From the NCBI GenBank assembly GCA_001972305.1, contig BDDD01002040.1:1-64000 (forward strand): a DNA stretch of 64,000 nucleotides, in the 5' to 3' direction. Source of the DNA: Cephalotus follicularis (lineage: Eukaryota; Streptophyta; Magnoliopsida; Oxalidales; Cephalotaceae). Under the pieces are notes generated by a model. That model saw only the letters and a program-made list of their open reading frames with translations. It did no database searches and was not told the DNA's origin. Both the position numbers and the translations under genes were made by a program. Below, piece by piece: positions 25,287-60,288 of this stretch (within the stretch, counting starts at the first letter, position 1; the number at the start of each line of letters is the position of its first letter).

Positions 25287-26978
25287 TGTAACGCCCCAAA
25301 ACCCATACTTGCTTTAGCATATTTTGCATTACATGGAATAATAATCACGGATATTTTAGAAATGATTGTGCATATGGATGTATGGCATGTGAGTATTTCA
25401 ATACTTATATGGATGGATGTTATGTTTGTTTACGGTATTTTGATTACATTGGGGTAGATATTAGAGTAAAGATTATAAATAAAGAACCAAAGCACATAAA
25501 CCTCTCATTTTCTCTCTGTTCTCTCTCTATCCCTTTTTTTTTCTCTCTCTCTCTAGAAACCACCAAATTAGCCCCAAAATCTGCCAAATCAAAGAGAAAA
25601 CAAAAGGGGTTTGGGGTATAGATTGATGGAAGACTTGATAATCAAGTATAAGATTGGAGCTCCACAAGCCAAGAACTTGAGTTCTTTCTCCGATTTCTGA
25701 ATTTAGAGACCAAGAACAAGCTCCAATCTTTGGTAGAAACTTTCTCTACCTAAATATGCTATGATTTACACTTATATGCACATGTATGACTTGCTTTCAT
25801 GGACTAGAATGGATTGAATGTGATTGAAATTGAATGTTAGAGAGTTAGGTCATAAAGGGGATTTTTAACCTAGAAATTGATATGATGGATTAAAATGATT
25901 GAAATGGTTTTAATGGCATAGAAATGGTTAATATGACTTGTATTGAACTTGGATTGAAGATATTTGAAGGAAAAGTGTTCATTTGCAAAGTTTTGGCAAG
26001 AACCATAGGTTTTGCTACTCTAAGCATCGACGCTTACGCTTTAAGCGTCGCCGCTTATCCTTTTTTTCAAAAGGGAGATCGCTTTTAAACCGTTAACCCT
26101 TTGCTTCCTGTGTAGTGCTTAGCCTAAGAGACAACACTTAGTCCTTAAGTGTCACCGCTTAGTCCAGTTTGTCCCAAAGTGCTAACGTTTAAAGCTTAAC
26201 TGATGATGCTTTAGTGCAAAACGTCACCGCTTAAGATCAAGGCGTCGCCGCTTTCGCAAGAAGTTTTCCGTAACTGATTTCAAAGAATGTTTTTCAAAGT
26301 ATTTTCTCACGGGTCATTTTCTAGGCTCATGTATGGTAAAGACTAACATGGTAAGGGTAAGGGCAATGTAGAGTCTATAGATGTGTTCACTGTAGTATGA
26401 ACTATAACTCCTAGTCAAGTATGTGGTGTCAACCTTCAGTCAAATAATCCCTCTACTAGAGTTACTCTGGGTAAGTGATTGGTTGAGCTCTTATTGGTTT
26501 ACCAATAAGCAATCAATTCTACTCGAGCTCATATATATTGATCTATCAATAGGCGACTAGATGTCTAATCCTAGAGCTTGTGCACCTTCGGGGGGATTTA
26601 GACACATGTATGGATAGAGAACGAATCTCGTGATCAGTTGAGCTCTTATCGGTCTACCGGTAGGCAACTGGGTCTAGTGAGCTCCTATCGATATACCGGT
26701 AAGCACTAGATGTTTAGGCCTTGAGCTTGTGCCACCTTCAGGGGGGTTCTATACTCACTTAACGGACGATATGATTGTATGTTATGGTATGACTTGTATG
26801 GATCTGTAACTAGTTGAGCTCCTACGGGTTTACCTGTAGGCAACTAGTTTTAGTGAACTCTTATCAGTCTACTGGTAGGCACTAGATGTTCTTATCCTCG
26901 AGCTTTGGTTAGGTTGGACTTATAGATGATGGTATGTTTGGTTAACTACTTATATATGCTGGTATGTTACAGTTTGTA
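25287..26978 (+). repeat. 5' part of a second Tekay-like LTR
   Basis: The unit begins TGTAACGCCCC and follows the usual layout: TATAAATAAAG (about 25469), a CT-rich leader, a TTCTCTACCTAAATATGC block, a TCGA-motif array (26031-26255) and repeated GAGCTC..ACCGGTAGGCA stretches. It is cut at 26978, where the minus-strand gypsy element begins. Confidence 0.6.
26031..26255. repeat. Array of GCGTCGCCGCTT-type motifs in an LTR
   Basis: Motifs include GCATCGACGCTTACG, GCGTCGCCGCTTA, GTGTCACCGCTTA, ACGTCACCGCTTA and GCGTCGCCGCTTT, spaced 15-60 bases apart about 0.75-0.97 kb from the LTR start. Confidence 0.8.
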
Positions 26979-27180
26979 TGTCACACCCCGAACCACGAGA
27001 GAACCCCACGGCCTAACGAGTGGCAGGTTCATCCATACAATTCATCTTTATACATAGTATAATACACAAATTATGCTATAAATTAAAACATTAATACACA
27101 ATTATGCATGCGGAAACAACCCTTCAAATACTTGCATCGATGAACCCCAAATATACATAACATTTCATACATGTATGTAG
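26979..27180 (-). repeat. Truncated 3' LTR of the gypsy element
   Basis: About 200 bp matching the start of the copy at 36309. It begins TGTCACACCCCGAACC and ends near ACATGTATGTAG, then runs into integrase-derived sequence. Confidence 0.7.
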
Positions 27181-27184
27181 GCAA

Positions 27185-28310
27185 CTGCACCTACTCTCTC
27201 AAGGATCTCAAAATGTCCTATATACCGTGGGGCTAACTTTCCTTTCTTGCCAAATCTCATAACTCATTTGGTTGGTGAAACTTTGAGGAACACATGATCT
27301 CCCACTGAGAACTCTAAGTCTTGCATTCGGTTGTCTACGTAACTCTTCTATTGACTCTGAGCTGTTAAAAGCTTTTCCCAGATAACCTGGACCTTTTATG
27401 TCATCTCTTGCACATGCCTTGGTCCTAAAAGACTCTTCTCGCCAACCTCAAACCATCAAACTGGGGTTCTACACTTTCGATCATAAAGGGCTTCAAACGG
27501 TGCCATCCCAATGCTAGAGTGATAACTGTTGTTGTATGAGAACTCCACTAATGGTAGATGCTTGTCCCAACTGCCACCCCAATCCATCACACATGCCTGA
27601 AGTATATCCTATCGTCTCCTCAGACTGACTATCTGCCTGGGGATGAAAAGCCATACCGAAGCTTAACTGAGTACCAAAAGCTGCTTACAGTTTCTTCCAA
27701 AACCGCGAAGTAAACCGTGGGTCCCTGTTGAACACAATACTGACTGGTACTCCATGAAGCCTAACAATCTCTTCAACATATAAGGATGCCAACTGTTCAA
27801 GTGGATAAGTCATCTTGATTGCTAGAAAGTGTGCAAACTTTGTAAAGCGATCGACAATAACCCTTATGGCATCACAGTTAGTCCTCGTCCTTGGTAACCC
27901 TGTCACGAAATCCATCGTGATGTGCTCCCAGTTCCACTGTGCTACTGGCAACGGTTGAAACAATCCATCTGGCCTCTAGTGTTCTGCTTTAACTTGTTGA
28001 CATGTTAAGCAAGAAGAAACATACTATGCTATCTCCCTCTTCATGTCATTCCACCAATAACTGAGCTTCAGGTCTCTGTACATCTTGGTACTCCCTGGAT
28101 GTACTAAGAAACTGGAGCGATGAGCTTGCGACAATAGCTCATCCTTCAGCTCCTTACTGTTAGGAGCACAAACTCTGCCTTGGAACCTTAACAATCCATT
28201 ACCATGAAGCAAAAACTCAGGTTTCAACCCTCATTGACCATTTAATGCAACTTTAATCAAGCCTCTATCCATACCCTGAGCCTCTCTGATTCTATCCAAA
28301 AACCACGGTC
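27185..28310 (-). pseudogene. Gypsy integrase (zinc-binding, core and C-terminal parts)
   Basis: On the minus strand the H2C2 region appears first (LLSQAHRSSFLVHPGSTKMY..LKLSYWWNDMKREI, 28227-28024). It is followed by the core ([56 protein letters not shown], 27963-27685), which retains Asp residues of the DDE triad. The C-terminal part (DLEFSVGDHVFLKVSPTK, FGKKGKLAPRYIGHFEILE) reaches 27190. Several stops separate these parts, and the chromodomain that normally follows is deleted. Confidence 0.85.
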
Positions 28311-28320
28311 GTGTCTGAAT

Positions 28321-28629
28321 CTAAGCAATTGTCAAGCAAGCTAATCGGTGACTTAAGGCGTATGCAATCATATTAGTCTTGCCTGGGTGGTACTTTATCT
28401 CATAGTTGTAGTCATTGAGTAACTCCATCCACCTCATTTGTCTCATATTCAGGTCCTTTTGGGAGAAAAGATACTTTAAACTCTTTTGGTTTGCGTACAC
28501 ATCAAACTTGGTACCATAGAAGTAGTGCCTCCATTTGCGTAGTGCAAAGACTATCGCTACCAACTCTAGGTCATGAGTGGGATAACTTTCCTTATGAGGC
28601 TTCAACTTCCTTGAGGCATAGGCAATCAC
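28321..28629 (-). pseudogene. Gypsy RNase H domain
   Basis: The translation [59 protein letters not shown] and [18 protein letters not shown] is the standard Ty3/gypsy RNase H. It degrades the RNA of RNA:DNA hybrids during reverse transcription. The final motif normally reads ADALSRR; here it is AYALSHR, consistent with decay. Confidence 0.88.
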
Positions 28630-28638
28630 CTTCCCATA

Positions 28639-29863
28639 CTACATCAAAACATAACCCAAACTATTCCCTGATGCATCACTGTACACTATGAAGCCCTCAC
28701 TGCCCTCGGGCAAAGCTAAGATCAGCGCAGAAATCAGACGGCGTTTTAACTCTTGAAAACTCCCTTCACAACTGTCATCCCAAACAAACACTATCTTTTT
28801 CTGCATCAACCTCGTTAAAGGTGTAGCTATCTGTAATAATCCTTCGACAAAGCGGCTGTAGTAACCCGCTAAGCCTAAGAAAATACGGACCTCTGTCAAG
28901 TTTGTTGGCTGTCTCCAATCCCTCACTGCTTCTATCTTTGCTGGGTCTACTGATAAATAGCACTGGAAATAACATGACCAAGAAAAGCCATCTCTGACAA
29001 CCAAAACTCACCTTTGCTAAACTTGGCATATAACTGATGTGAACGATAAATATAGATACCTGTCGAACAAGCAATTATATAAAGGAAGTGAAGAAAATAT
29101 TAAATAGATAGAAGACGAGATTTATCCTGGTTCAACCAATCTAGGGTTACGTCCAGCAATAGGAGTTTCACTATATTGATCAATAGTCTCCTCACTTCTC
29201 TCTTATTACTAGCTCTCACACTACAAGAGAATATATATATATAGGCGAAGAAACCCTAATAGTTTCTTAACATGTGGCTATTCATGGGCCAAGCCCAAAC
29301 CACAAACAGGACTAAAGAAAATAGACATTTCGGTCCAAAACAAATATCCAATTTTGGCTACCTGTCGGGGGCACTGTCCCCGAGCGTTAGGGTCATAGTA
29401 CTGATCCTTTGAATTAATCGCCAACCTCAACATGATGGTCTTGCAAAACCTGTAATGCCAAGTGAAAATGTTCCCCATGTTCCTCCATATTCCTGGAATA
29501 CGCCAAGATGTCATCGACAAAAACTACGATGAACTGGTTAAGATATGGACTAAACACCCTATTCATAAGGATCATGAATGCAGCAGGGGCAATGGTCACC
29601 CCAAACGGCATTACAATGAACTCATAGTGTCCATACCGTGACCTGAAGGCTGTCTTTGGAATATCTTCGGCTCTAACCCTTAACTGATGGTATCCCGACC
29701 TCAAATACAACTTGGAGAACACTGAAACACCTCTCAACTGGTCAAACAATTCATCAATATTTGGTAGGGGGTACTTGTTCTTAACTTTAACCCTGTTGAG
29801 ATGCCGATAATCGATACACATCCGAAGAGATATATCATTTTTCTTAACAAACAAAACGGACAC
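28639..29863 (-). pseudogene. Gypsy reverse transcriptase, split by an insertion
   Basis: The fingers/palm part (29863-29426) shows [78 protein letters not shown] and the catalytic FVDDILAYS. About 390 bp of foreign DNA follows. The thumb/connection resumes as [20 protein letters not shown] (near 29030) and [31 protein letters not shown] and [17 protein letters not shown] down to 28639. The few codons before LFVKK lie beyond the CACTA element, at 32792-32960. The gene is inactive. Confidence 0.88.
29037..29425. mobile_element. Unclassified LTR-like insertion in the reverse transcriptase
   Basis: Reverse transcriptase coding sequence is contiguous on either side, while this block contains ATATATATATAGGCGAAG, AGATTTATCCTGGTTCAACC and GTTACGTCC, words typical of plant LTR leaders. 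TACCTGTCG occurs near both ends (about 29057 and 29360). Candidate duplications (ACTGA and ACCTC) match poorly, so the class and exact ends are open. Confidence 0.45.
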
Positions 29864-30265
29864 TACAAAAAAACTGGCCTTTTGAAACGGATGGAATCCG
29901 TTTCAAAAGGCCTATTTTTCCGTTTCAAAAGGTCAATTGAAACGGTTTTGAAACGGAAAAATGGAATTTCAAAAAAGTGGCGTATCAATAGCCTTTTGAA
30001 ACGGAAAAACCGTTTCAAAAGGGTACCCTTTTGAAACGGATAGAATGAACCGTTTCAAAAGGCACCCTTTTGAAACGGCAGACTCTACCGTTTCAAAAGG
30101 GTACCCTTTTGAAACAGTTAATCCGTTTCAAAAGGGTTTTAAAAAAATAAAAAAAAATAAGACCCTTTTGAAACGGTTAACACTAACCGTTTCAAAAGGG
30201 TTTTTAAAAAATAAAAAAAAATACCCTTTTGAAACGGTTGACAACCGTTTCAAAAGGGTTTTAAA
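29861..30265. repeat. Left subterminal repeat zone of the CACTA element
   Basis: More than a dozen copies of CCTTTTGAAACGG or its complement alternate in orientation, many as facing pairs that can form stem-loops. In other CACTA elements such zones bind the TnpA-type protein. Confidence 0.88.
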
Positions 30266-30550
30266 AAATAAAAAAAAATATAATTCATTTAAATATTTTA
30301 TAATCAGATTTTTTTATTAAAAAATAATAAAAATATATTATTATACAATATTATAGACAACAAATTATTGGTTAATAAATCCAAAATCCCAAAACGATCT
30401 TTACCAAGACCAGATTTCCCCAAGTGCCAAAACCATCTGAGAAAAATTAAATACACCTCCAAGCATAGGTAAGGTACTCTTGAGTAATATGGCTTCACCA
30501 TGTAAAAATTACTTTGACTTCTAACTTGTGTATCCTCTATGAACTGGAGA

Positions 30551-30700
30551 TCAGTAGGAGCCCATTGGTGGCATGCCGAAAGCTGGCATTGGAGGCATTC
30601 CCATCCCACCCATTGGTGGTGGCTGTGGAGCGAAACCTCCACCCATTCCCTGCATTGGTGGTGCAGGCAATGCAAGAGGCAGCAGCTGAGCATACATATT
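30551..30700 (-). pseudogene. Captured terminal exon with Met/Pro/Gly-rich C terminus
   Basis: On the minus strand a 3' splice site (TAATCTGCAG) is followed by an open frame of 49 codons: [20 protein letters not shown], then [18 protein letters not shown], then [12 protein letters not shown] and a stop. The low-complexity Met-Pro-Gly tail, clean stop and splice site suggest the last exon of a real plant gene carried by the transposon. I do not recognise the parent gene. Nothing upstream on the minus strand inside the element is clearly a further exon. Confidence 0.55.
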
Positions 30701-32559: not shown

Positions 32560-32791
32560 CATGTTTTGAAACGGTAGCTATAAACCGTTTCAAAAAGCCT
32601 CGGGTATTTGAAATGGTAGCTATCAACCATTTCAATAAGCCGGGCTTTTTGAAACGGTTTATAGAAACCGTTTCAAATAGTGTACTTTTTGAAACGGATT
32701 TTTTATCCGTTTCAAAAAGTTAACCCTTTTGAAACGGCCGCGTCATCCATTTCAAAAGGGTGCGTTTCAAAAAACCACTTTTCTTGTAGTG
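32560..32791. repeat. Right subterminal repeat zone of the CACTA element
   Basis: Facing copies of TTTTGAAACGG and CCGTTTCAAAA mirror the left zone; some are mutated (GAAATGG, CCATTTC). Confidence 0.85.
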
Positions 32792-36289: not shown

Positions 36290-36302
36290 GCTCTGATACC
36301 AC
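36290..36302 (-). other. Primer-binding site of the gypsy element
   Basis: Plus-strand GCTCTGATACCA is the complement of TGGTATCAGAGC, the initiator-Met tRNA primer site. It lies seven bases from the LTR start. Confidence 0.8.
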
Positions 36303-38293: not shown

Positions 38294-38428
38294 TTATTTT
38301 AAAGAAGGGTTCACATAGGTTACACGTCCTTAGGGAGGCTTTCTATAGAACCCATTTGAAATTGAAAAGGGGATTAAAACATAACATTTGTATAAAACAG
38401 GGCGCTAAAGTTTCAACACTTAAGCAAA

Positions 38429-38574
38429 GCGTCGACAGTTAGCATACATTGCAAAGTGTCGACGTTTTCACATAAGGCATCGACGATTAAGGCATTGCAT
38501 CTCAAGCGTTGACAGTTTTGAAGCAAAGCGTCGACAGTTTTGAGTCGACGGTTTGACCCAAAGGGTCGATGGTT
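38429..38574. repeat. Array of GCGTCGACAGTT-type motifs in the gypsy 5' LTR
   Basis: Copies include GCGTCGACAGTT (twice), GTGTCGACGTTT, GCATCGACGATT, GCGTTGACAGTT, GAGTCGACGGTT and GGGTCGATGGTT within 146 bases. Confidence 0.85.
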
Positions 38575-39931: not shown

Positions 39932-40489
39932 CCCACACTCTCTCTCACACACACACACATTATCCTCTTTAAAACACTAAACCATATCTCTCCCTCCCCT
40001 CTTTTACTACTGCCACCATTAACAACCCCATTTGGAGAAGATTGATTATTTTACTTATCATTGTTACATCCACTGAAGCTTGCCATCTATTTTGGGAACA
40101 CTTGGACTTGAGTCCAATCTCCAATTTCTGCCGATTAATCGATTTACAAGCTTCTAATTGTTAGATAGGGTTTCTCTACCTAAAATGCCATTTATTATAT
40201 ACATATAAACTGTATTTGAGTTATTGGAATGATTGTTATCGGCTGAATTTATTAATTGTGAAAAATCAATGAAAAAATGGTTAGAGATCTATTTTAGCCT
40301 TTTTATTGTTTGAAAACTTTCTGATAGTCCAAATGACTTGATATCTTGATATGTTTTTTTTAGACATATCTAGATAATTCATTCAAAGTTTCATTTCGGA
40401 CAGAATTGAAAAAGGTTATGAAAATCAAAAGTTATGCCATTTTGGAGTTTGTTGTCAAATTGGGGAAAATCTGCAGAACTTGGCATTCC

Positions 40490-40747
40490 AATCGACTGGG
40501 GACTCATTTTAGTCAACTGGGATATATAGGATTTGTTATTTTTGAGCCTTAAATCGATTGGGAACTCACTCTAGTTTATTGGGATAGGTTACAATCGACT
40601 AGAGACCCATTTCTGTCGACTAATTGGCTAGAAAATCATGCCCAAACCACCTGAAATGATGACAGCCGACTGGAGGTTCCTTCTCCAGTCGACTATGATG
40701 CTTTTAAACATGGGAGTCAACTCTATTTTAAATGGTGTCGACTCCAC
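40490..40747. repeat. Array of TCGACTGG-type motifs in the outer solo LTR
   Basis: Copies include AATCGACTGGGGACTC, AATCGATTGGGAACTC, AATCGACTAGAGACC, TGTCGACTAATTGG, AGCCGACTGGAGG, CAGTCGACTATG, GAGTCAACTC and TGTCGACTCC. Confidence 0.8.
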
Positions 40748-43667: not shown

Positions 43668-43804
43668 TGTAGCACCCCTTCCCGGAGCCACCATTATAGC
43701 GTTGTTAGGGAATGTTGTGGTTAAATACAGTGTTCCTTACCTGTCCCATACCGAAAAAGGGGAGAAAGTAATTAAACTATATATGAACTGACCTAGAAAC
43801 TAAT
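43668..43804 (+). repeat. Start of the TRIM 3' LTR, left of the nested element
   Basis: It begins TGTAGCACCCCTTCCCGGAGCC after a short TRIM interior. It is cut at CTAAT (43800-43804), where the gag-only element inserted, and resumes at 51074. Confidence 0.7.
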
Positions 43805-46706
43805 TATAACACCCCCCGAACGGCGGGAGTCGTTACGGTTCATAGTCCGAAACTAAACATAACCTATCATGAGATATAACTTGATTTTATTCTTTTTTAT
43901 CAGATTATTTACTCATCTTTTATTCAAATTGCGTGATGGTCTAAAACTTAATAAATAAAATCTAAAACATTGTCTAAAACTTAATTCATAATATGAAAAC
44001 TTAAACATAAACCAAAAACTGAAATATAATCCAAGTCATAGACTGAAAGGCATAACATTGTTTAAAAGGGGTCCTAACATGACCATAAAATAACTAAGTA
44101 TAAACGGTTCCATCTCCTAAGTGGTCCTTATAATAGGTGACATCTCGCTCATCACACATTGCCCGGATGCTGTCCTAGAATACCTGCCGCATGGAAACAA
44201 AAACGCGGCTGAGCAAACCTCAGTACGGATATAGAATCATAAAATATAAAACGATAATTTAAAAGATAGGAAATACCTGAATCATTAAATATCCTATACC
44301 TTATGCATAAAGTAATTTAACATTATTTATAAAAGCGGAGGTAAGTAGTCATACAACCAGTTCAAAACGAATATCGAATTTTCAAGGCGTTATTTAATTT
44401 CAAAACATAATTCAAGTTCAAAATCCCAAAACATATTCAAAACGAAAAACAAACAAACAGAGACTTATCCGATTCCATAATCTCATTACCGAGATCCAAA
44501 GTGCATACACATATGCATAGGTGCAAGGGGTTTGCAAGGCCCACATGCCAAACGGAAGGACGTGTACGGCACTACACAATCAATCCCCAGAATCCATATC
44601 CTTAACATAACATATAACTAGAGTATACCCATACGCCTCTATCACACATATCGGATCCATAAATCTACCTCATGGGATTTATTCAAAACATAGAGAGACG
44701 CCGTAGTCAAATCACACCGCTACGGTAGTGTCATGTCCCCGTGCCAGGCCCACGACATGCCTATGGTACCTCCATAGGTAGGAAATATCTCTGTGTATAT
44801 CCTTATTTCAAAAACATTGCTTTATTTCTAAAAACAATTTAAAAACGTAAACACATTTTCTAAACATTTTCTGGACATAGCAAAATCATTACATAACATC
44901 AACTCATTTATTTTCCACTATAAAGAGATGATCATTTCATATCGTAACGTATCTTAGCATAAAAATATAGTTAGGAATATTTAATTTCATAAAATATCAA
45001 AAACCAACTTATTTCCAAAACATATCATAAAACATAACAAAATCTATAAGACGAGATCATAGAATAAAACTGATTTTAGTTTGATAATCAGATAGCCAAG
45101 GAACGATAGGAATCCGTACATTATTTATAAAGTAAAACAGGACAGTTTCAATAAAATCAGATAACCGAAGAACGATAGAATCCGTACGTTATTCATAAAG
45201 TAAAACTATCTTTTTACTATAAAAAAAATAGGAGGGTGTCAAGGAACGAAACATTCGTACCTTATGCGATCACAAAAATAACTTTACGAATTGATCAACA
45301 ATTTCTAATTGTCCCTCGTAGCACAAAAAATCTAAGAGATGCAATATCATACATATAAGGATTCAAAAATCACTTCCAAACATCATACAGTAATTTAACA
45401 GTGCTTAAAACATACTCCAAATCATTACAAAACCAAACGGATAACAAAACTTGAAACCAGAAAAATTATTGGACAATTCCAGTCGACTGTAACACAATCC
45501 AGTCGACTACTCAAGGGTGGCAGTCGACTGTACTGCATAGGCAGCCGACTACTCAAACTGGGTTGAATCAAGTCGACTGTGACAGGGGGTCCTGTCGACT
45601 GTGCAAGGCAACCAGTCGACTGTTTTACAAGGCAGTCGACTACCCAAAGCCTGACAGTCGACGGTTTACATAGACAGTCGACTGCTCTGGCGACAGGAAA
45701 CAAAAACACAGCAGTTATAATTCAAATTTTTCTATCAAACTTCCAATATTACTATAGTAGATGATCTTAAACACTTACATAGGACTTATGTGACTTAACA
45801 GTTGCATTAAAACACAAAGAATCATGCAATGGGTGATCATACTTTAAGGAGAATCAAAATTCTAATTCATTGCATGCACACCTATTAATCAATTTCTGTC
45901 ATATACCAATTTCTAGTTTCAATATCTGTTTATAATCATTACTAAACACTTCAGGGCTTGCTAAAAATCTCAGAAACATTAACCAAACATACATGGCAGG
46001 GATTAAAAACAAAACATACTAGCAACCTATATGTACATGCACTAGATACTATAAACGAAAATTCACTGCTAAACCATATCCATAGGGAAAAACAAACCTG
46101 GTATGATGATCAAAGGAGAACAAAACAGATTCTAATCTTGCAGGTTCGGTTCTAGGCACAATGACAAGGTAGAGGCATAAACGGTGAATGATGGCATACA
46201 TATACTATATGGAAAAGGCAATTTAGGTCATGGTAAGGCAAAAAGGAAATCCAAAATCTGATTTAATGTGGAAAGAGGACAGAAATTCGGGATTTACTAG
46301 GGAGAAAGAGAAGGAAAGAATCGATTTTGGGAGGGAAGAAGGAAGAAAAACGTGTAGGAGAGGGAGAGAAATAGAAAACAAAATAAAATTGCCATAATAC
46401 TCTTATTTTATTCCCAATTTAATTCACCCTTGCCATATTAATAATTTAAAAACTGATTTTAAAATACAAAACAATTAAACTTTTATTTTAAATTTCATGA
46501 TTTTTTTTCCAAATTGAATTTATTTGCCATATTCCAATGATTGTATTATTTTATTTCTAAGACATAAAAGCCCAAAAATTATAATATCATATAGCTCATA
46601 AATTAAAATTGACCAACCATATAATAAAATAAAATCCAAAATATGCACACCAACATAAAATCAAACAAAAATCCGAAAATAAGCACACGAAAATCGGGGT
46701 ATTACA
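43805..46706 (-). repeat. 3' LTR of the gag-only element
   Basis: 2,902 bp, starting TATAACACCCCCCGAACGG on the plus strand (TG to TA change) and ending GGGGTATTACA. It matches 48182-51073 with sparse substitutions, except that about 80 bases near 46480-46560 are diverged or replaced relative to about 50856-50930. Confidence 0.92.
45479..45684. repeat. Array of CAGTCGACTG palindromes in the 3' LTR
   Basis: Ten copies of the 10-bp palindrome or one-to-three-base variants (CAGTCGACTG, CAGCCGACTA, AAGTCGACTG, CTGTCGACTG, CAGTCGACGG) occur in about 205 bases. Confidence 0.93.
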
Positions 46707-46777
46707 TCCTTCCCCCCTTAAAAAGATTTCGTCCCGAAATCTTATTAACCAATCCGAATCAATAACAGAAGAACAAC

Positions 46778-48007
46778 TCAATATGCATAACAAAATAACG
46801 CAGTTATCACATAATAAGTTGACTTATCAATCAAATCAAACTTCTTACAGTTACCAAAACAAAACAAAACCGAAACAATACCTGGTGCGTTCGCAGTCTG
46901 ATGCGTCGTTAAGGCGAAAACTCTACCTCCCACATTACGTTGCTCCACATCATTGCCATTTCCTCCTTTATTTCTCGTACGAGGATTCGGGCAATCCTTA
47001 AAGAGATGACCCTTTTGTCCACAAGCAAAACATGCCCCAGTGGCCTTGTAACATGTCCCAATCGGATGTCGCTTCCCACACGTATCACACAAGGAAATCT
47101 GAACATTGGGGTTACCCCCATCCTTATTCTGATTATGATCCTTTTTATGATGTTTGCCTTCACCTTGTTGTTCAGAATTCTTCCCATGAAAATCACTCCT
47201 ATTCCGCTTCTTTTCCTTTTCTTGTCGAGCTTCCTGAAAGTCCAACCTCTCCAATTCAATATTCTTCGCAGCATTTGCTACTTCTGCCACATCAGCAAAC
47301 CTGGAGTTTATCAGTTTTCCCCTTAGTTGGTACTGCAATTTCCATTTGAACTTCTCTACTTGCTCCAATGCAGACCCCACCGTGGATCCAGCGAAACCCG
47401 CTAACCTAGTGAACCGGTCCAAAAACTCGGTGACTGATTCACCATCCTTCTGCCTAGTGTTAACAAACTCCCTTGCGTAAGCTTCCTTGTCAGCAGTGGG
47501 GAAATACTGCTGATAAAAAACTTCACAGAATTCAAACCATGTCAGGGCATCAATGTAATCTCCTCCGTTAGCTAACTTCAAAGTTTGCCACCACTTCTGA
47601 GCATCTCCTTCCAATTTATAAGCTGTCAACCTTACCTTTTGTTCGTCATCACATCCTAACACATTGAAAATTTTCTCCATGTGCGTAATCCAGTGTTCAG
47701 CCTCTACGGGTGTGAGGGCCGAACTAAATGACGGCGGCCTCTGCTTTTGGAACCGCTCAAGCTAGACATATACAGGAGTGTCGGGCCGATCCCCAGTTTC
47801 TCTACCAACCTGAACATTAGCCGGTGCATTTTTCGCCGTGACTTGCTCTTGGCGTCTTTGCCCTTGATTTTGCATAGCATGAATCAGTCGATCTATTTCC
47901 TGAGCAACTACCTTTCGCACTAACTCTTCAACCGTAGGCTCGTTTCGCACTTCTTCTCGAGCCTCAGTCGGTTCGTTTCCTTGTGGGGTATTCCTTGCTC
48001 GTACCAT
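46778..48007 (-). pseudogene. Gag of the non-autonomous element, with one in-frame stop
   Basis: The start at 48005-48007 opens MVRARNTPQGNEPTEAREEV and includes VRKVVAQEIDRLIHAMQ. A TAG at 47762-47764 interrupts the frame, which then continues in phase with LERFQKQRPPSFSSALTPVE, AEHWITHMEKIFNVL, RLTAYKLEGDAQKWWQTLK, CEVFYQQYFPTADKEAYARE and FVNTRQKDGESVTEFLDRF, the retrotransposon gag domain. Further on it shows two Cys motifs (CDTCGKRHPIGTC and the zinc knuckle CFACGQKGHLFKDC). It ends just after ALTTHQTANAPG, the usual entry to protease, where unrelated residues and a stop follow. Pol is thus missing from this point. The TAG may be decay, or the gag may start at the Met after it. Confidence 0.88.
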
Positions 48008-48181
48008 CTACGAAACATAAATCCAAACATAACACAACAGCAAAAGAAACCAAGGTCGAAACAACAAACACGTCAGAAAGATCACAACAAAAGATCCTAA
48101 CCCAAGGTCTACCCAATCTCACAGGTCAAACCTAGTCAGGTCTTCTAAGGAAAGAAAAAAGCCTATTCTCCGATACATCTC

Positions 48182-51073
48182 TGTAACACCCCCCGAACGG
48201 CGGGAGTCGTTACGTTTCATAGTCCGAAACTAAACATAAATTATCATGAGGTATAACTTGATTTTATTCCTTTTTATCAGATTATTTACTCATCTTTTAT
48301 TCAAATTGCGTGATGGTCTAAAACTTAATAAATAAAATCTAAAACATTGTCTAAAACTTAATTCATAATATGAAAACTTAAACATAAACCAAAAACTGAA
48401 ATATAATCCAAGTCATAGACTGAAAGTCATAACATTGTTTAAAAGGGGTTCTAACATGACCATAAAATAACTAAGTATAAATGGTTCCATCTCCTAAGTG
48501 GTCCTTATCATAGGTGACATCTCGCTCATCACACATTGCCCGGATGCTGTCCCAGAATACCTGCCGCATGGAAACAAAAACGCGGCTGAGCAAACCTCAG
48601 TACGGATATAGAATCATAAAACATAAAACGATAATTTAAAAGATAGGAAATACCTGAATCATTAAATATCCTATACCTTATGCATAAAGTAATTTAACAT
48701 TATTTATAAAAGCGGAGGTAAGTAGTCATACAATCAGTTCAAAACGAATATCGAATTTTCAAGGCGTTATTTAATTTCAAAACATAATTCAAGTTCAAAA
48801 TCCCAAAACATATTCAAAACGAAAAAAAAACAAACAGAGACTTATCCGATTCCATAATCTCATTACCGAGATCCAAAGTGCATACACATATGCATAGGTG
48901 CAAGGGGTTTGCAAGGCCCACATGCCAAACGGAAGGACGTGTACGACACTACACAATCAATCCCCAGAATCCATATCCTTAACATAACATATAACTAGAG
49001 TATACCCATACACCTCTATCACACATATCGGATCCATAAATCCACCTCATGGGATTTATTCAAAATATATAGAGACGCCGTAGTCAAATCACACCGTTAC
49101 GGTAGTGTCATGTCCCCGTGGCAGGCCCACGACATGCCTATGGTACCTCCATAGGTAGGAAATATCTCTGTGTATATCCTTATTTCAAAAACGTTGCTTT
49201 ATTTCTAAAAACAATATAAAAACGTGAACACATTTTCTAAACATTTTCTGGACATAGCAAAATCATTACATAACATCAACTCATTTATTTTCCACTATAA
49301 AGAGATGATCATTTCATATCGTAACGTATCTTAGCATAAAAATATAGTTAGAAACATTTAATTTCATAAAATATCAAAAACCAACTTACTTCCAAAACAT
49401 ATCATAAAACATAACCAAATCTATAAGACGAGATCATAGAATAAAACTGATTTTAGTTTGATAATCAGATAGCCAAGGAACGATAGGAATCCGTACATTA
49501 TTTATAAAGTAAAACAGGACAGTTTCAATAAAATCAGATAACCGAAGAACGATAGAATCCGTACGTTATTCATAAAGTAAAACTATCTTTTTACTATAAA
49601 AACAATAGGAGGGTGTCAAGGAACGAAATATTCGTACCTTATGCGATCACAAAAATAACTTTACGAATTGATCAACAATTTCTAATTGTCCCTCGTAGCA
49701 CAAAAAATCTAAGAGATGCAATATCATACATATAAGGATTCAAAAATCACTTTCAAACATCATACAGTAATTTAACAGTGCTTAAAACATACTCCAAATC
49801 ATTACAAAACCAAACGGATAACAAAACTTGAAACCAGAAAAATTACTGGACAATTCCAGCCGACTGTAACATAATCCAGTCGACTACTCAAGGGTGGCAG
49901 TCGACTGTACTGCATAGGCAGCCAACTACTCAAACTGGGTTGAATCCAGTCGACTGTGACAGGGGGTCCTGTCGACTGTGCAACGCAACCAGTCGACTGT
50001 TTTACAAGGCAGTCGACTACCCAAAGCCTGACAGTCGACTATTTACATAGACAGTCGACTGCTCTGGCGACAGGAAACAAAAACATAGCAGTTATAATTC
50101 AAATTTTTCTGTCAAACTTCTAATATTACTATACTAGATGATCTTAAACACTTACATAGGACTTATGTGACTTAACAGTTGCATTAAAACACAAAGAATC
50201 ATGCAATGGGTGATCATACTTTAAAGAGAATCAAAATTCTAATTCATTGCATGCACACCTATTAATCAATTTCTGTCATATACCAATTTCTAGTTTCAAT
50301 ATCTGTTTATAACCATTATTAAACACTTCAGGGCTTGCTAAAAATCTCAGAAACATTAACCAAACATACATGGCAGGGATTAAAAACAAAACATACTAGC
50401 AACCTATATGCACATGCACTAGATACTATAAACGAAAATTCACTGCTAAACCATATCCATAGGGGAAAAACAAACCTGGTATGATGATCAAAGGAGAACA
50501 AAACAGATTCTAATCTTGCAGGTTCGGTTCTAGGCACAATGACAAGGTAGAGGCATAAACGGTGAATGATGGCATACATATACTATATGGAAAAGGCAAT
50601 TTAGGTCATGGTAAGGCAAAAAGGGAATCCAAAATCTGATTTAATGTGGAAAGAGGGCAGAAATTCGGGATTTGCTAGGGAGAAAGAGAAGGAAAGAATC
50701 GGTTTTGGGAGGGAAGAAGGAAGAAAAACGTGTAGGAGAGGGAGAGAAATAGGAAACAAAATAAAATTGCCATAATACTCTTATTTTATTCCCAATTTAA
50801 TTCACCCTTGCCATATTAATAATTTAAAAACTGATTTTAAAATACAAAACAATTAATTTTATTTTTCCCATAATCCTTATTCCATTAATTTATCAAAAGC
50901 CCAAAGATGGTATTATTTAGCCTAAGACATAAAAGCCCCAAAAATTATAATATCATATAGCTCATAAATTAAAATTGACCAACCATATAATAAAATAAAA
51001 TTCCAAAATATGCACACCAACATAAAATCAAACAAAAATCCAAAAATAAGCACACGAAAATCGGGGTATTACA
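48182..51073 (-). repeat. 5' LTR of the gag-only element
   Basis: 2,892 bp, starting TGTAACACCCCCCGAACGG and ending GGGGTATTACA on the plus strand. It carries the same internal array of CAGTCGACTG motifs (49857-50061). Confidence 0.93.
49857..50061. repeat. Array of CAGTCGACTG palindromes in the 5' LTR
   Basis: Ten copies at the same offsets as in the other LTR, with a few differences (for example CAGCCAACTA in place of CAGCCGACTA). Confidence 0.93.
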
Positions 51074-51310
51074 CTAATTACATTGAGGCCCCTTTTGGTG
51101 GATTGGCCAAGGAGTTTGTAAAAACTCTGAGGTTAAGCATGCTTGGCTGAGAGTAGTAACATGATGGATGGCCTTCTAGGAAGTCTCACCAAATTCATCA
51201 GTAAGGACAAAACCGTAAGTCTCACGTAAAAACACAGATGTATGGATGTTGTGGATTCTGCGATGGGCAAAGCGGATAATTTCTCATATGATTTATGTCG
51301 GGTCGTTACA
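51074..51310 (+). mobile_element. Cassandra-like TRIM, remainder of the 3' LTR
   Basis: It continues the LTR begun at 43668 and ends GGGTCGTTACA at 51310. A 5S rRNA-derived block lies at 51131-51187 (GGTTAAGCATGCTTGGCTGA, then GAGTAGTAACATGATGG). With 43378-43597 it shows that the gag-only element landed inside a TRIM. Confidence 0.8.
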
Positions 51311-53459: not shown

Positions 53460-54960
53460 ACACGATGATGGATAGCCGGAGGCGCCAGGCCAATCTGAAC
53501 GCAATGCCATAAAGCGTTGCATCTGTCGTTGAGTCTCCTTCATCTCCTCCATCTGTGACTCTATGCGTTGCCACCTCTGCTACTCTACCCCTCATATCAT
53601 CGATCTCTTGTTACATCCTCGTCATCTGGGACTTGAGCTCAGCCTCCCTCTGTGTCGCATGACCAGTGGCACGACCTCTATTGGTTTGCCCAAGTATGTC
53701 CAACCTCTTCGTCCCTGCCAATCCAGCAACTCGATTCTTTTTCAATGTGTCGGGATGCTGTACAGACAAAAAAAACTCGGATCAGATCAAGAGCATCTAG
53801 CTCAATCGAACCCTCAGCAACCCTAGCGTCCGCTTGCTCCTGTGTTTCCTGTAGATATATCCAACCATTTAAATTTACAAACAAATAGCACAAAAATCAT
53901 AATGTAGTCGTGCATGTAGTTACAAAATAATAATGAAGCAACAAACAATAAATACCAAGTAGGCCTAATGTAGGTGTTGACTGCTCAAAGATATGAACGT
54001 CTCCCGATCGTCTCTACCAGTGTGCATCTGAACAAAGAACTTGTTGAGCGTTTTCTGTTGCCCAGCTACCCTCTGCATATAAGTTTAGGATCAATGAGAT
54101 GATTATTGTTTACAATTAAGTACAATAGTAATATCAACTGTAACTTTATATACCTGCTCGTACTGAAGAGTAGCAAAGTTTTGGATCCACCAGTATGCAG
54201 CGAATGTCGCTCAAAGGCTCGATTTTGTCGACCAGCTTCGCGCCTCTGTGCATACTCCTGGGTCATCCACTTCTCCACAGCCGATCGCCATACATCATCC
54301 CTGACGCCCCAGGGAGGATGACTGACTATATCCTCAATAGGCATACCATCACGCAACAGCTTGTCCATGTGCATCCGGTATTCATAGAACCACTTTTTGA
54401 TGTTCTCAGTCATGTAATTGTTGAAGGTGTTGCAAACGACGTCCTCAAGGTCTTTATACCTATAGCGGCGCTGAAAAATTACAAGATCAAAAATTAGTAA
54501 TTGAACAACAGATTTTCAACACATTTATACATATAGTAATTAAGAATGGGCTAAAACATTCACATACACAAGTGTAAAAGGCCTAAAATAACTCATCCTT
54601 AATCTCACGGGGGGACTTTAAACCATGTGGGTAGCCTGCAGGAATGTAGCCTCTCCCTAACTCGTTTACCTTCGATTTAACGGCACCTAATGAAAAACTA
54701 CAAAGAATCATAAAATACTATTATGCAGTAATAAATAATAATAATATTATAGTTAATAATGAATGTAGACGATAAATGTATTTACCTTCTACCCTGTAGT
54801 AAACAGATTGGCCTGGCATCCAGTCAACTTACTCCTACATCTATTGTAGGGACGTCATCAACATCATCTACCTGTGCATGCGGAGCAAAGGTAGAGGGTG
54901 TGTCCGAGGGTGGTGCGGATAAGGCCTCTGCCTCCAAACGCTGAGCTGAGGAGCTGCTCC
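53460..54960 (-). pseudogene. Second CACTA protein (plant transposase Ptta/En/Spm type)
   Basis: On the minus strand the fragment WGVRDDVWRSAVEKWMTQEY followed by AQRREAGRQNRAF..HSLHTGGSK (54413-54180) fits the plant En/Spm transposase family, which typically has a W..L...W....Y...S..NK.NR...HTGGS pattern. Further down, HPDTLKKNRVAGLAG and ATQREAELKSQMTRM (53760-53600) continue it into a coiled-coil-like tail. Short introns or frameshifts separate the pieces. Such proteins bind subterminal repeats. It is probably defective. Confidence 0.65.
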
Positions 54961-55129
54961 TCCGAAAAGTCCACAGGCAAACCATCTGGAGCACCAATTA
55001 AACATTTAAAAATATATATGACATATATATAATTACTAAATAAAAACACATTAACGATCAATTACACATTACTAATTTGGTTGTATGGACAATATCTTAC
55101 TCGATAGGCATTGTCAACGCATATCATTT

Positions 55130-55860
55130 AAGTCACGCACATTCTCATCTCATTCACCCCCTTCACTAATGTCGTTCTCTTCATCTTCATTATCTTCCTC
55201 ATATTCAACATCAGTGTTTCCATCATTGGAATCATCTCCATCAACATCTCCACCTTCCTCGCCACCATCTATGTCATCTTCGTCCGTATCCGGGATGACA
55301 TCGTCATCTAGGAAAGCATCATTATGTAATTGGACACAAGGGGGATTGTCGTCTTGGTACACATCATCTTAGTTTACTACTAATTCATTGTCATCCTGAC
55401 ATATGTCATAACTGTTTCTCGCCTTCATTGCGATGACCCAATCCCAATTGCGATCCCGATTGGAAATGCATTTGACATAAAACACTTGTGTGCACATTGC
55501 AGCGACAAATGGGTCATATTTCCTCAACCTACGATTGCGATTAAAACGTACAAGACCATGCTTGGTTATTTGGACTCCTATAGTCGTAGTTATATTGAAC
55601 CAGTCACATTTAAACAACACAACATTATAGTCTCCCAAATATTCGATATTCGAGTTGAATATTGTCATCTACTCGATCATAGTAATGTGTTTGATGCATG
55701 ACTGAGATGTCTTCCCCTTTGACAGAAATACCACTACATTGAGTCTCCTTATGCTTGTCGTGATTCTTAGTACGAAAGAAATATCCGTTAGTTACATACC
55801 CTGTATACGCTTTGGCTTTCAGACTTGGTACTTCACTCAACACTTTCAAGGCTTTCCATT
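55130..55860 (-). pseudogene. TNP2 C-terminal part: DUF4216-like domain and acidic tail
   Basis: The minus strand reads LKAKAYTGYVTNGYFFRTKN and QCSGISVKGED (55849-55700). After a frameshift it reads YLGDYNVVLFKCDWFN, KHGLVRFNRNRRLRKYDPFV and AAMCTQVFYVKCISNRDRNW (55640-55440), the DUF4216 region found at the end of TNP2 transposases. A highly acidic tail (55362-55150, runs of Asp and Glu) follows after an in-frame stop at 55369-55371. Confidence 0.75.
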
Positions 55861-56154
55861 GTCGAATTCTAAAGGAAGACTCCTAACCTAAGATAAATGA
55901 ACTTGTATTCAAGATGCGTGTATACATAGTGTGCGTTCAGTGTGTGAATACAAGAAATAAGTTACTGTACTTTATTCCTAAACCAATTTACAAATTTGGT
56001 GTCATGTAAATCGTCAATCTTTTTATCTTGAAGTCGAGGATGCATCATTCTCAACTCACCGTAATGCCATCTGCACCACAAAACATATTGGGTATAATAT
56101 GAATATGATCTTACATTAGACCATGCAAGGTATTAAAGAAGTTGCATATATGAC

Positions 56155-57545
56155 TTACCGAACGAAATCATCAACTTTGGCACAATTTTGTAAAACACAC
56201 AATGCTGCTAGCTTGTTATCAACGGAGTTGAGGTACCAAGGTCTGGCCGCACCCAAAAAATGACCAGGGTGCAAGAAGATTGACAACCGACCTTCTTGTT
56301 CTGTCTCGTCGCAAGGGTCATTTAGTGCTACTTTATTTGCCTTGGTTTTCACATCCTCGTCGAAATAGTTAGATACAAACGAAACAAGCACCTCCATAAT
56401 GTATCCTGCTGCAATCGACCCTTCTGGTCGAACTTTGTTATGAACCATTTTCTGCAAAGCAAACAGAAACCTATATATACATATACAATGCAAACAAACA
56501 TTATAAGTGACTATACTTGCCAAAAATGATGGATGATAGATTAAAAATTAATTAGAGTAAATACTTCTCAAAAGGATACATCCATCTATATTGCACAGGT
56601 CCATCGACCATTGCTCCGTATGGAAAATGAATAGGCAAATACTCCATTGAGTATTAGAAAGCCGGTGGAAATATCTTTTCAAGGCTACACAATATGACGA
56701 CAATGTTTTTCTCAAGCTTCTCCATGTCTTCTACATGCAAGGTAATAGCACATATATCCTGGGAGAATTGACTAAATTCAACAACGGGACCGTACACCTT
56801 CTTGGGTAGCAAATCATGAAAAAGCATCAGGACAAGGCATTGAAAGATAATGTGACAATCATGACTCTTAAGCCCTTGTAGTTTCCCCTTATTCACATTC
56901 ACACAACGGGAAATGTTCGATGCATACCGATCTGGAAACTTAATCTTCTTCGGCCATTTACACACCTCTTTAATACTATCTTTACCTAATGTGAAAGGTG
57001 TCGGTGGTTTCTTCGAGCCTGCATTAGGCAGCCATAGCTCCCTCCGTACCTTCAACACTTTCAAGTCCTTCCTTGCATTGAGGGTGTCTTTCAATTTATC
57101 GGGCAAGTCCATAATTGTTCCCACTAAGTTATCTGACAACTATTCTCTAGCATCACATCAAGATTATGACGTATCAGATTACTGCTCCAGTAAGGTAGGT
57201 CAAAAAATATACTTTGTTTTGTCCACTTATGAGAATCCAGGTAACCTTCAGCTATCTGAGTGGATGTATTACCAAAACAAAGATCCATTAACCCCATGAC
57301 ACGATTACGTATTTCCTTTCCTGAATGACATGGCAGAGCACTTAAAGTCTTAACTTCCAGATTAAATGGTGCACGATGGGACCAAAATGTGTGATCCGCA
57401 GGCAAGAATCAATGATGACAGCCCCACCAAGTCTCTTTCTTACTGTCTTTGAGCCAACAACCAGGTAACTCATCCATGCAGTACGGACATGCCATCTTGC
57501 CATGAGTGCTCCACCCTGATAACATACCGTATGGAGGAAAGTCAA
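56155..57545 (-). pseudogene. TNP2-type CACTA transposase, central part
   Basis: Minus-strand fragments in order are: a WSTKGKLACPYCMD-like region (RWHVRTAWMSYLVVGSK, 57500); FLPADHTFWSHRAPFN-type sequence (57405); SIFFDLPYWSSNLIRHNLDV, MLENSCQIT (57180); GLKSHDCHIIFQCLVLMLFH, LLPKKVYGPVVEFSQFSQDI and LEKIFPPAF (56870-56654); and RPEGSIAAGYIMEVLVSFVS with NYFDE (56430-56360). This is the order of the Transposase_21 and DUF4218 regions. Multiple frameshifts show that it is dead. Confidence 0.85.
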
Positions 57546-57571
57546 TAATAGTCTACATTAAAGTAGCCCTC

Positions 57572-60288
57572 TGTAACTACCCGAATTCCCTTTCTGTACT
57601 GTTGAACACTGTTCATGCATATATTGTACTGCTTTGTACCGTATTGAACTGTATTGTATTGTATTGTATTGATATGAGGTATTCCTATACCTATTGTTAT
57701 TGTATTGATTACGTATTGTATTGTATTGATATGAGGTATTCCTATACCTATTGTTATTGTATTGATTATATGCATGTATAGTCGGGATTTTGGGCTGAGT
57801 TTCGAAGAATCGGCAGAATTGACTATATAAGTCAATTCTTTACTCTCTTTCTTTCATTTTCTCATTCTTCTCACTCTCTCTATCCTTCTCCTCCTCCTTC
57901 TCCCAGGCGGCAGTCTCCTTCTCCATAGCAGCTCCGAATTGCATATCCAACAGCGAATAACAATTGAAGTCTCACATTTCCTTGGTTTGAGCAAGATAGC
58001 CATGGATTCTTCAAGTTTCCTAACAGATTGTTTGAATGGAAGCTCAACCGTTGAAGCTTCGTTATAGGTAGGACTTCTCTACTTTTATTGCCTATTTCTT
58101 AATTGATTGATTGATTGAATTGCATGATTGATTGAATGATTGAATGATTGTATTGTATGGAATTATGAAACTAGGGTTTTTTATTGATTCCCTTGATCTA
58201 GCTGATCTAGGAAGTTTGAAACTGATATTGGAAGGTTGTAACAAGTTTTACTAACCTTAAAAGACTGTTTTTAACCCTTGGTTTTCAAAGAATGGGTTTT
58301 AAATGGATTTTGACTTGAGATTTGCTGGTTTTCTGCACAAAAATCGGTCTGCCCAGCAAAGACATCGATCCCCAGCCCATGGACATCGATGTCTTTTGAT
58401 TTAGAATGCAGTATCCTTGATTCCGCAGCAAAGACATCGATGTCTTTGAAAGACATCGACGTCTTTGCCTTAAGATGTCTTCTCCCCAGAGAAGACATCG
58501 ATGTTGAACATCGATGCGCATTTCCAAGCTATTTTTATTGAAACGCGTCGACGTCTTTGTCTAAGGACATCGACGTCTTCGGCTAGAACTTTACATACAC
58601 AGAGAAAGACATCAATGTCTTTCAAAGGCGTCGATGTCCTTCTATAGTTTTAAAGGAACGCCCTGATATGCATCGATGTCTTTGGCCAAGGACATCGACG
58701 CCTTTCGGGCTGAATGGAACTTTTAGCTGTTTCAAAGCTAGTTTTCAACTCCTCTTCATATTGCCGCTTGACTGGAGCCTCACTTGAGGTATTCAAGTGT
58801 TTGAAACATAGTTTTCCATGGTTTTCAAAGATTGAATTGATAAATTGATAGAGTGACAGCTGGAGCCATAGACGACGACCCAGTGACCTTCTTTGACTGC
58901 ATATATGTTCTTTCCTATCTCGTTATTTGATTGTCACCATCTATTGGCTATTGATTGATGGATTGAGTGATCGAGCCATAAGTGTTATGAGTCTAATTCG
59001 GAACGTTAGACTCATTTTCCCATATCTCCATTAAACATCACCACTTATTGACATTGTAGACAGTGTACTAACAGATTGATTGTATTGTATGAATCCTATA
59101 GAGCGACCTTATCATTCGTATCGGTATGTTAGGCTGTCGACTCTGTCCACCTATTTCGTCGATCGTCTCATTTATTGTATTGACTGCTCCCTTACGGTCG
59201 AGCTTACTGATTGATGCTCGCGGAGGGCCGTAGCTCCCTAACGGTTTAGTAGCTCCCCCGTGGTTGTAGCCTACAGAGATTGTATTGTCTTGCTGACGTG
59301 CACTATTGATTGACTGACGATTGATGCTCCTGGATGACTGTAGCTTCCCGACGGTCGTAGCTCCCCTATGGCTGTAGCTCATCGATACTGCTACTGACTG
59401 ACGATTGATGCTCCAGGAGGGATGTAGCTCCCCAACGGTCGTAGCTCCCCCAAGGTTATAGCTCATCGATACTGTATTGACCCAGCCGTAGGCTGGAAGA
59501 TCTACGAGTTCCAGACCTGATCAGTCTGAGAACAGTAGATAGATATCCCACCCTTTTTGAAGGACTACCTTCCGTGGGATTGATCATTACCATTGACTGA
59601 CATTGTATTGACCCGAGGTCGCATGCTCTATAGGATATGATTGATTGATTGGGTGTTTTATACACCACCACTGAGTGTCTGCCATTGATTGATTGTTATA
59701 GATCCTATTCATATGCTCTGTTATGGGCCAATGTCATATGGATAATCAGATCGCCAATTGTATTCATGCATTTGCCATATCATGCATTGATATTGTACAC
59801 TGAACATTGATATTGCATAGATTGTCACCGATATTGCACATTGTACATGCATACATGTTGCATGGGGTTTCTGCTTAGCCTTGTGGCTAACCCCATACTT
59901 CGGGGTGATGCTGTGTTGTACATTTTTGTGTGCGGCATAGGTAGGGCAACAGTTAGCAGCAGACAGAAGGATTGAAGTTTCAGTGCGACCGCATGATCAT
60001 TTTGGATCTGACAGAGTTCATCTTGTAATATTGTCTTTGAAGAGATTGATAGTTGTATTGTAATGAAATGAATGGCATAGTATTGTAACAGAATTTGTAT
60101 TGTACTGTACTGCATGGATGGATTACTGCAATGTTTACAACAGAATTGAATTGTATCTTCCGCACAAAGACATGTATTGTAAAGTTTTAAGTTTTTCCGC
60201 AGTTTTATATTACTAGCCCCGACCATTGTATTGTATATTGGATTGAGAGTAATGCCACGTGTCCGTCCTCCGGGCGCAGGGTGTTACA
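57572..60288 (+). mobile_element. Solo Tekay-like LTR inside the CACTA transposase
   Basis: It begins TGTAACTACCCGAATTCCC and ends GGGCGCAGGGTGTTACA. CCCTC stands on both sides (57567-57571 and 60289-60293), a perfect duplication. The layout is the same as the other large LTRs: a TATATAA box (57824), a CT-rich leader, a TCGA-motif array (58361-58707), GATTGATTG-rich sequence and a terminal CCCCATACTTCGGGGTG hairpin near 59891. A 60-base stretch (GATATGAGGTATTCCTATAC, then CTATTGTTATTG) is repeated in tandem at 57671-57775. Confidence 0.93.
58361..58707. repeat. Array of GACATCGATGTC palindromes in the solo LTR
   Basis: At least eleven copies or close variants: GACATCGATGTCTTTG, GACATCGACGTCTTTG, GCGTCGACGTCTTTG, GACATCGACGTCTTC, GACATCAATGTCTTTC, GCGTCGATGTCC, GCATCGATGTCTTTG and GACATCGACGCCTTT. 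Confidence 0.93.

Follow-up and report, generated by a model that had tools for sequence, protein, structure and literature searches.

Three types of TCGA-centred palindrome array in long terminal repeats of two retrotransposon superfamilies of Cephalotus follicularis

Why should large long terminal repeats (LTRs) that appear unrelated each hold a row of short palindromes built on TCGA? The question is raised by a stretch of 64,000 nucleotides of Cephalotus follicularis DNA (contig BDDD01002040.1, positions 1 to 64,000, referred to here as the window), where a first-pass annotation had noticed six such arrays and had described their flanks as different in every LTR. LTR retrotransposons form a large share of many plant genomes and their promoter switches are known for few of them. 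We found that the flanks do not differ in every LTR; the window arrays collapse into three recurring types, A, B and C, and each of these types is found both in Ty3/gypsy (Tekay-type) LTRs and in Ty1/copia (SIRE-type) LTRs.

Palindrome arrays in the window and in the genome

The types are defined by the words CAGTCGACTG (type A, with a CAGCCGACTG variant), AAGAC(A/G)TCGA(C/T)GTCTT (type B) and AAGCGTCGACGCTT (type C). All six window arrays, to which no strand is assigned, were located where the annotation had put them and they hold 5-12 copies each. The arrays at 45480..45684 (10 copies in 20-22 bp steps plus a single 28-bp step) and 49857..50061 (9 copies) are of type A, and a degenerate type A array at 40489..40695 has 6 copies within 2 mismatches of CAGTCGACTG. 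Type B is represented at 58361..58702, where 12 copies are found within 3 mismatches of GACATCGATGTC. A type C-like array with 7 copies of a GCGTCGACAGTT variant was observed at 38428..38574, and a decayed type C array with 5 copies within 3 mismatches of AGCGTCGACGCT at 26023..26252. The TCGA or TCGA-like core that had been ascribed to all arrays is decayed in this last one, with TCGA present in 1/5 copies and TCGC or TCAC in the others. For each array, 200 dinucleotide shuffles of the array plus 500 bp on each side were made, with mismatch limits of 2-4. The observed copy numbers were matched by 0/200 shuffles at all six arrays, where the shuffle maximum was 2 or 3, and the comparison with shuffled density that the annotation had suggested therefore comes out in favour of the arrays.

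A single minus-strand element at 43805-51073 accounts for the 45- and 49-kb arrays, one in each of its two 2.9-kb LTRs. On the minus strand, this element has a 3' LTR (43805..46706), a gag open reading frame (ORF; 46781..47761) with a match to Retrotrans_gag (PF03732, E 3e-14) and a zinc knuckle, and a 5' LTR (48182..51073) that is 97.2% identical to its partner. It is bordered by CTAAT target-site duplications at 43800..43804 on the left and 51074..51078 on the right (both plus strand). The interior has a Ty3-type gag and no pol was recognised between the LTRs. L011 (C1, about 48-53 kb) is likewise a gag-only Ty3 element, and the two have interiors of about 1.4-1.5 kb, long LTRs and type A arrays. 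An offset of 0.7-1.2 kb from the LTR start had been put forward for the arrays in general; it holds for the 45/49-kb pair (1.0-1.2 kb), which is the sole pair measured. The 38-kb array lies 2.1-2.3 kb upstream of a primer-binding site (PBS), TGGTATCAGAGC, at 36290..36301 on the minus strand, belonging to a minus-strand element with an LTR end at about 36309. The LTR containing the 58-kb array ends with GGGTGTTACA at 60279..60288 on the plus strand, as judged from homologous copies and the sequence letters, and LTRs homologous to it were found at L021, where a Ty3 gag is located downstream, and at L019.

Exact words were counted in the 1,577,397,061-base assembly (9,746 contigs), where the identical letters reversed served as the control. 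The type A word occurs 197,377 times against 939 for the reversed word, and the type C word 18,108 times against 15. For type B, the one-sided forms, in which one outer CpG is present as CA/TG, give 23,780 + 23,585 = 47,365 copies (99 + 112 = 211 reversed), the form with CpG on both sides, and so with all three CpGs, 6,402 (26 reversed) and the form with neither outer CpG 10,794 (10 reversed). Spaced type A pairs, CAGTCGACTG-N(1-31)-CAGTCGACTG, number 54,611 against 183 reversed; at gaps of 9-12 such pairs were found in 9 contigs of a prokaryote collection and in 0 contigs of a viral collection. An ACGT core in the type A arms (CAGACGTCTG) has 195 copies against the 197,377 with the TCGA core. 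Centre-decayed type B words with both outer CpGs intact number 555 (282 + 273), or 9% of the 6,402 intact words. Other centre-decayed forms, GACGTTGACGTC, GACATTGACGTC, GACATTGATGTC and GACATCAACGTC, were counted in the sampled loci only and occur at 0, 0, 2 and 1 places, while the intact-centre forms occur at 6, 22 and 10 places of the same sample. Arrays with type-specific flanks do recur, as had been expected, and far exceed both shuffles and reversed words.

To look for further arrays, 264 kb were scanned for repeated 8-letter words and the places read by eye. Arrays were seen in 10/15 unselected 10-kb loci (L014-L028) by eye and in 8/15 by an automatic rule (at least 4 words per 400 bp). 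Elements were also sampled through LTR-end/PBS junctions picked without regard to arrays, namely the Tekay-type junction GTGTGACA-N(1-6)-TGGTATCAGAG (15,667 in the genome) and the SIRE-type junction CTTTCANTTGGTATCAGAG (1,170), and 12 Tekay-type and 10 SIRE-type LTRs were read. By eye, the Tekay-type LTRs were observed to have type A in six, B in one and C in three (one degenerate), with none seen in two; the SIRE-type LTRs have A in one, B in one and C in five, with none seen in three. L050 was counted as C because its canonical position is occupied by a C array and its B array is located upstream of the inferred LTR start. Under the automatic rule, RTCGAY clusters were found in 8/12 Tekay-type LTRs, 3/10 SIRE-type LTRs and 8/15 unselected loci, and in 0, 0 and 0.3% of the shuffles, which were run for this word alone. 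The rule is often passed by non-CpG control words too, and likewise by RACGTY, which is part of type B: the LTRs or loci that pass in the same three samples number 7, 0 and 7 for RCATGY, 4, 0 and 6 for RTGCAY, 3, 0 and 3 for RAGCTY, 1, 1 and 5 for RACGTY, 0, 2 and 0 for RGCGCY, 0, 0 and 1 for RCCGGY, and 0, 0 and 0 for YTCGAR. A test with all 10-letter palindromes (pure A/T excluded, up to 2 mismatches) was too noisy, with a TCGA palindrome ranked first in 6/22 LTRs, one of them outside types A-C.

Array type, element descent and possible cassette replacement

Superfamilies were called from the gag or pol domains adjoining the LTR. Type A is carried by the copia element L009 and by Ty3 elements L011, L012/L013 and L020, the array of L020 lying in what is presumably the 3' LTR, 1.2 kb past the pol ORF. 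Type B is carried by copia L049 (in L051) and by Ty3 L033 (in L053) and L021, the relative of the window 58-kb LTR, and type C by copia L050 (in L052) and L022 and by Ty3 L035 (in L054) and L038 (in L055). The copia gag PF14223 follows the CTTTCANTTGGTATCAGAG junction in L009, L051 and L052, and in L022 with a match below the curated cut-off. The Ty3 carriers have Ty3-type gag, RVP_2, RT_RNaseH or integrase domains and their assignment to Ty3 is firm. H2C2, rve, SH3_Tf2-1 and Chromo were found in the L020 ORF, rve and Chromo scoring below their curated cut-offs. The lineage names Tekay and SIRE are provisional and based on LTR ends together with the weak L020 chromodomain match.

Judged by gag comparisons, array type does not follow relatedness. 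As an example, L009 (A) and L049 (B) have copia gags with 90% identity across 260 residues, and for L033 (B) and L035 (C) the corresponding figure between Ty3 gags is 88% across 82 residues. Among the type A Ty3 gags, the identity between L011 and L013 (59%) is lower than that between L011 (A) and L038 (C) at 63%, and L013 shares 27% with the window element. The flanks had also been thought to be specific to LTR lineages, which is not supported by the presence of the same three types in both superfamilies or by the independence of type from gag relatedness. Between superfamilies, array matches at E<0.05 are formed by type B motif units only (L033 with L049 and L050); the other matches at this level are TA runs, pieces common to L036 and L046/L048, and one 40-bp match between L040 and L048. 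No LTR-wide similarity was found between superfamilies, and no A or C array match reached E<0.05.

Ten copia LTRs were compared as ordered pairs over three regions, which are 110 bp upstream of the array, the array itself and 480 bp downstream. For the 60 cross-type pairs with any hit, the mean coverage was 10% upstream, 4% in the array and 52% downstream; most of these pairs align downstream of the array, and array coverage is 0 in 57/60. The three exceptions (0.78-0.86) involve A elements and L041, in which another type A array is present between -1762 and -1532. L014 and L045 gave no alignment hit in either direction. The mean coverage for the 28 same-type pairs was 93%, 63% and 63% for the same regions, and 16 of these pairs fully span the array. 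Replacement is clearest between B (L049, L024) and C (L042, L044, L022), where 29-70% of the upstream region, none of the array and 82-92% of the downstream region are covered; with L022 as the query, the upstream coverage for these B elements is 0. The B elements have little in common with L041 and L045 anywhere, and copia A elements have the downstream part alone in common with B and C. Among the Ty3 LTRs, the part that L037 shares with A elements is limited to the region downstream of about -1.1 kb. The earlier idea that the copies are replaced as a set is thus supported in copia LTRs, where the alignment breaks at the array, and is less clear in Ty3.

The annotation knew of no named feature for such arrays, but palindromic repeated motifs upstream of TATA have been published for Sirevirus LTRs (PMC2829016). 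As described in the available text of Bousios et al. (2010, PMC2829016), the Sirevirus repeated motifs are short CpG-bearing palindromes, of which an element has 8-32 in its LTR and linker region taken together. Most of the LTR copies form a cluster in its upper half and upstream of the TATA box, and their sequence varies by element. TCGA-centred motifs in that text are those of Tnd-1 (ACAATCGATTGT) and Vitis (CGGTCGACCG); the core CGG-CCG is present in all but Tnd-1, and Vitis has CGG-CCG plus TCGA. The motifs are reported there as specific to Sireviruses (Ty1/copia) and missing from the 'classic' elements compared. The Cephalotus arrays are alike in having many palindrome copies per LTR (5-12 per window array) and, in five copia LTRs with a called TATA box, in being located upstream of it. 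They differ in that types A-C have an RTCGAY core without CGG arms, are also present in Ty3/gypsy LTRs, form three types spanning the superfamilies with steps of about 21 bp, and differ in type between copia elements whose gags are nearly identical. In maize, too, Sirevirus palindromes are clustered within the regulatory portion of the LTR, according to the accessible portions of two studies (PMC5311732, PMC10760457), the second of which describes one palindrome common to Copia elements and Helitrons and generally no obvious structured peak in maize Ty3 elements. Palindrome arrays themselves are therefore known from Sireviruses. Apparently new are the Ty3 carriers, the TCGA types common to both superfamilies and the copia replacement, which we did not find in print among the open-access matches listed, as far as their text was available; six motif strings sought in literature text gave no plant-retrotransposon title among the matches listed.

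Position, spacing and possible function of the arrays

A TATA box was called automatically in 6/12 copia LTRs and none was found by rule in the other 6. The array is located upstream of TATA in 5/6 of the called LTRs (L009, L022, L044, L049 and L042), while no array accompanies the TATA-like site of the sixth, L047. The half-site clusters of L009, L022, L044 and L049 end at -575, -666, -565 and -733 before the PBS and their TATA positions are -533, -571, -528 and -639 respectively, which places the cluster ends 37-95 bp upstream. The TATA of L042 is at -537 with the array upstream by eye; L042 and L045 escaped the rule-based cluster finder, which in L041 took the distal array alone, and these three were read by eye. 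A recurrent TATAAA(C/A)TGTC was observed at -392 to -430 in 5/12 Tekay-type LTRs (L031, L034, L037, L039 and L040), four of which have type A arrays near -1.4 kb. If the TATA sites are promoters, the arrays therefore sit in U3 and not in the 5' leader.

In a listing of 78 exact A site pairs, 57 steps are 19-22 bp, 12 are 27-28 bp and 9 are 41 bp, with nothing else between 11 and 41. When near-duplicates were removed, 20-22 bp was the commonest step in A (32/54), B (21/58) and C (8/25), which suggests a spacing suited to two helical turns. Divergence was assessed in five related aligned Tekay-type LTRs, with columns chosen from the left-out row, and the other rows differ in 109/1206 motif comparisons (9.0%), 271/1149 spacer comparisons (23.6%) and 1680/5925 flank comparisons (28.4%), which are not independent of each other.

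On balance, we lean towards the arrays being U3 cis-regulatory cassettes which are bound by dimeric host proteins and whose types are shared across the superfamilies. Protein binding was one of several roles that had been suggested, and we rate it the best fit; the binding, the host origin of the protein and any effect on transcription are what we infer from the sequences. Each array would be a promoter-upstream row of dyad-symmetric sites, most often in steps of about 21 bp, where dimers of a putative host DNA-binding protein would require the TCGA core and read the arms. The three arm types would imply several recognition specificities, for example those of paralogous regulators. Within one genome, Ty1/copia and Ty3/gypsy elements would use identical types because they are exposed to the same host factors, and a copia element may switch specificity when one cassette is lost and another gained. 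Hairpin folding and small RNAs would then be by-products of the palindromy. A host factor is favoured because the same three words are found in two superfamilies, the core is specific and the commonest step is equal across palindrome lengths. If true, the word that two superfamilies use in 197,377 copies would point to a host factor within reach of one binding screen.

The bZIP protein FD is reported, in the available part of one study (PMC13360168), to recognise ACGT- or TCGA-containing motifs of the FT promoter, GACGTC and GTCGAC among them. GTCGAC is present in types A and C and in CpG-form B, which also has GACGTC; FD sites differ in being single sites in a host gene promoter and not arrays (PMC13360168). 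bZIP proteins may be taken as a lead for the kind of candidate protein. In barley, CBF proteins reportedly bind (G/A)(C/T)CGAC, a site with which type A is compatible as well.

Several observations weigh against host-bound cassettes. Steps of 27-29 and 49-51 bp do not correspond to an integral number of helical turns, and the spacings above 24 bp show modest 10.5-bp phasing (n=67, R 0.35, p ~0.0003), for which a period of 11 is as good (R 0.37). The 11-nt spacers are more alike than shuffled ones (4.56 versus 3.55 identities) and therefore some units arose by duplication, and homogenisation could account for the low motif divergence. Type A words with a decayed centre are fairly frequent, at 21,361 (about 11% of intact) against 4,173 reversed, and the Tekay-type arrays lie about 0.9-1.0 kb upstream of the TATA-like site. 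With regard to replacement, 12/28 same-type copia pairs (L041 or L045 with L042, L044 and L022) cover 0-50% of the array. The Ty3 LTRs L033 (B) and L035 (C) align at 62% up to the array and at 80% from it, including part of the array edges, and about 240 bp of L033 have no counterpart in L035; the Ty3 replacement is not clean.

A more far-reaching form of the host-bound cassette proposal is tentative. The arrays may be exchangeable address cassettes with at least three host-read TCGA codes common to unrelated superfamilies of one genome, where replacement of a whole cassette would change the regulator, tissue or silencing pathway. If cassettes are exchangeable, near-identical elements with different codes would provide a natural experiment on retrotransposon regulation.

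It is unlikely that the arrays act as RNA, in the 3'-end U3 or through read-through, with hairpins feeding small RNAs and silencing, or with RNA pairing, and with selection for self-complementarity. Sirevirus palindromes are small-RNA hotspots in maize, according to the available text of PMC5311732 and PMC10760457, and 15/18 of the present arrays have predicted folding energies more than 2 standard deviations below composition shuffles (z -0.65 to -11.5). However, when the motifs were kept and the spacers shuffled, z was -3.06 to +1.76 for the 18 arrays, with an average of about -0.4 and values below -2 in L009, L019 and L038. Spacers shaped for long hairpins were rejected, as shuffling them barely alters the predicted folding energy. 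Self-complementarity alone also leaves unexplained the thousandfold excess of TCGA over ACGT in the type A arms and the shared arm types.

Still less probable is a mutational origin without function, by slippage, unequal exchange, template switching and amplification through retrotransposition, with identical types arising by exchange. Unit-sized indels between related LTRs, the spacer likeness described above, the high element copy number and array turnover among some same-type LTRs are all consistent with such an origin. The motif columns are nevertheless less variable than the spacers despite their CpG, intact and outer-decayed type B far outnumber the centre-decayed form, and the two superfamilies have the same types although the sequence around the units is not shared. 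On the basis of the motif constraint and the rare centre-decayed type B, neutrality as the full explanation was rejected.

We regard as very improbable an anti-silencing address in which an element-encoded protein would bind the motifs of its own LTR. This would resemble the VANC targets of VANDAL DNA transposons, which are described in the accessible text of PMC5735166 as short, dense, tandem, non-coding motif arrays that change fast and diverge as a set, and close relatives in Cephalotus likewise differ in type. The VANC targets differ in being located in DNA transposons and read by the element's own protein, and the VANC motifs seen in that text are non-palindromic (PMC5735166). The L009 copia ORF at 6664-7170 (plus strand) has weak leucine-zipper matches (HALZ E 2e-4, bZIP_1 E 7e-4), which are below curated cut-offs and cover the zipper part only; no other extra DNA-binding domain was found in 30 ORFs, a selection from the many that the fetched loci contain. 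The sharing of all three types by Ty1 and Ty3 elements also fits poorly with a lock and key that each element encodes for itself. Least credible are leader elements for RNA dimerisation or packaging by palindromic kissing sites, since palindromes can pair between RNAs in general but the array is upstream of every TATA box or TATA-like site seen with an array (5/6 called copia LTRs and four type A Tekay-type LTRs), which would put it outside the 5' leader and leaves the leader role that had earlier been suggested unsupported, and the types are common to superfamilies whose RNAs presumably should not co-package.

Minor observations and neighbouring loci

Types can mix at one place, as observed at L009 7490-7665, where a type B unit (7550) is located amid a type A array. 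Two arrays about 1 kb apart lie upstream of one PBS in L033 and probably in L034, L040 and L038; in L033 both fall inside the LTR if, as is likely, it starts at -2332. Candidate two-array LTRs on C1 (52.9/54.1 and 65.9/67.0 kb) were rejected, as one member of each pair falls in extra sequence or beyond the repeated LTR. Palindromic units without TCGA were also seen. Two clusters of inverted units, TTTTGAAACGGT...ACCGTTTCAAAA, are located at 29992-30280 and 32564-32737 of the window, and palindromic-looking GAGTACTTAACTC-type units in 44-bp steps, without a TCGA core, are found at L027 2150-2450.

Elsewhere in the window, a 731-residue ORF at 18403-20595 (minus strand) has SAD/SRA, Pre-SET and SET domains and the look of a SUVH-type histone H3K9 methyltransferase. 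It is adjoined on the same strand by a 454-residue ORF at 20599-21960 which has no Pfam match and spans three 246-bp tandem copies at 20890-21625.

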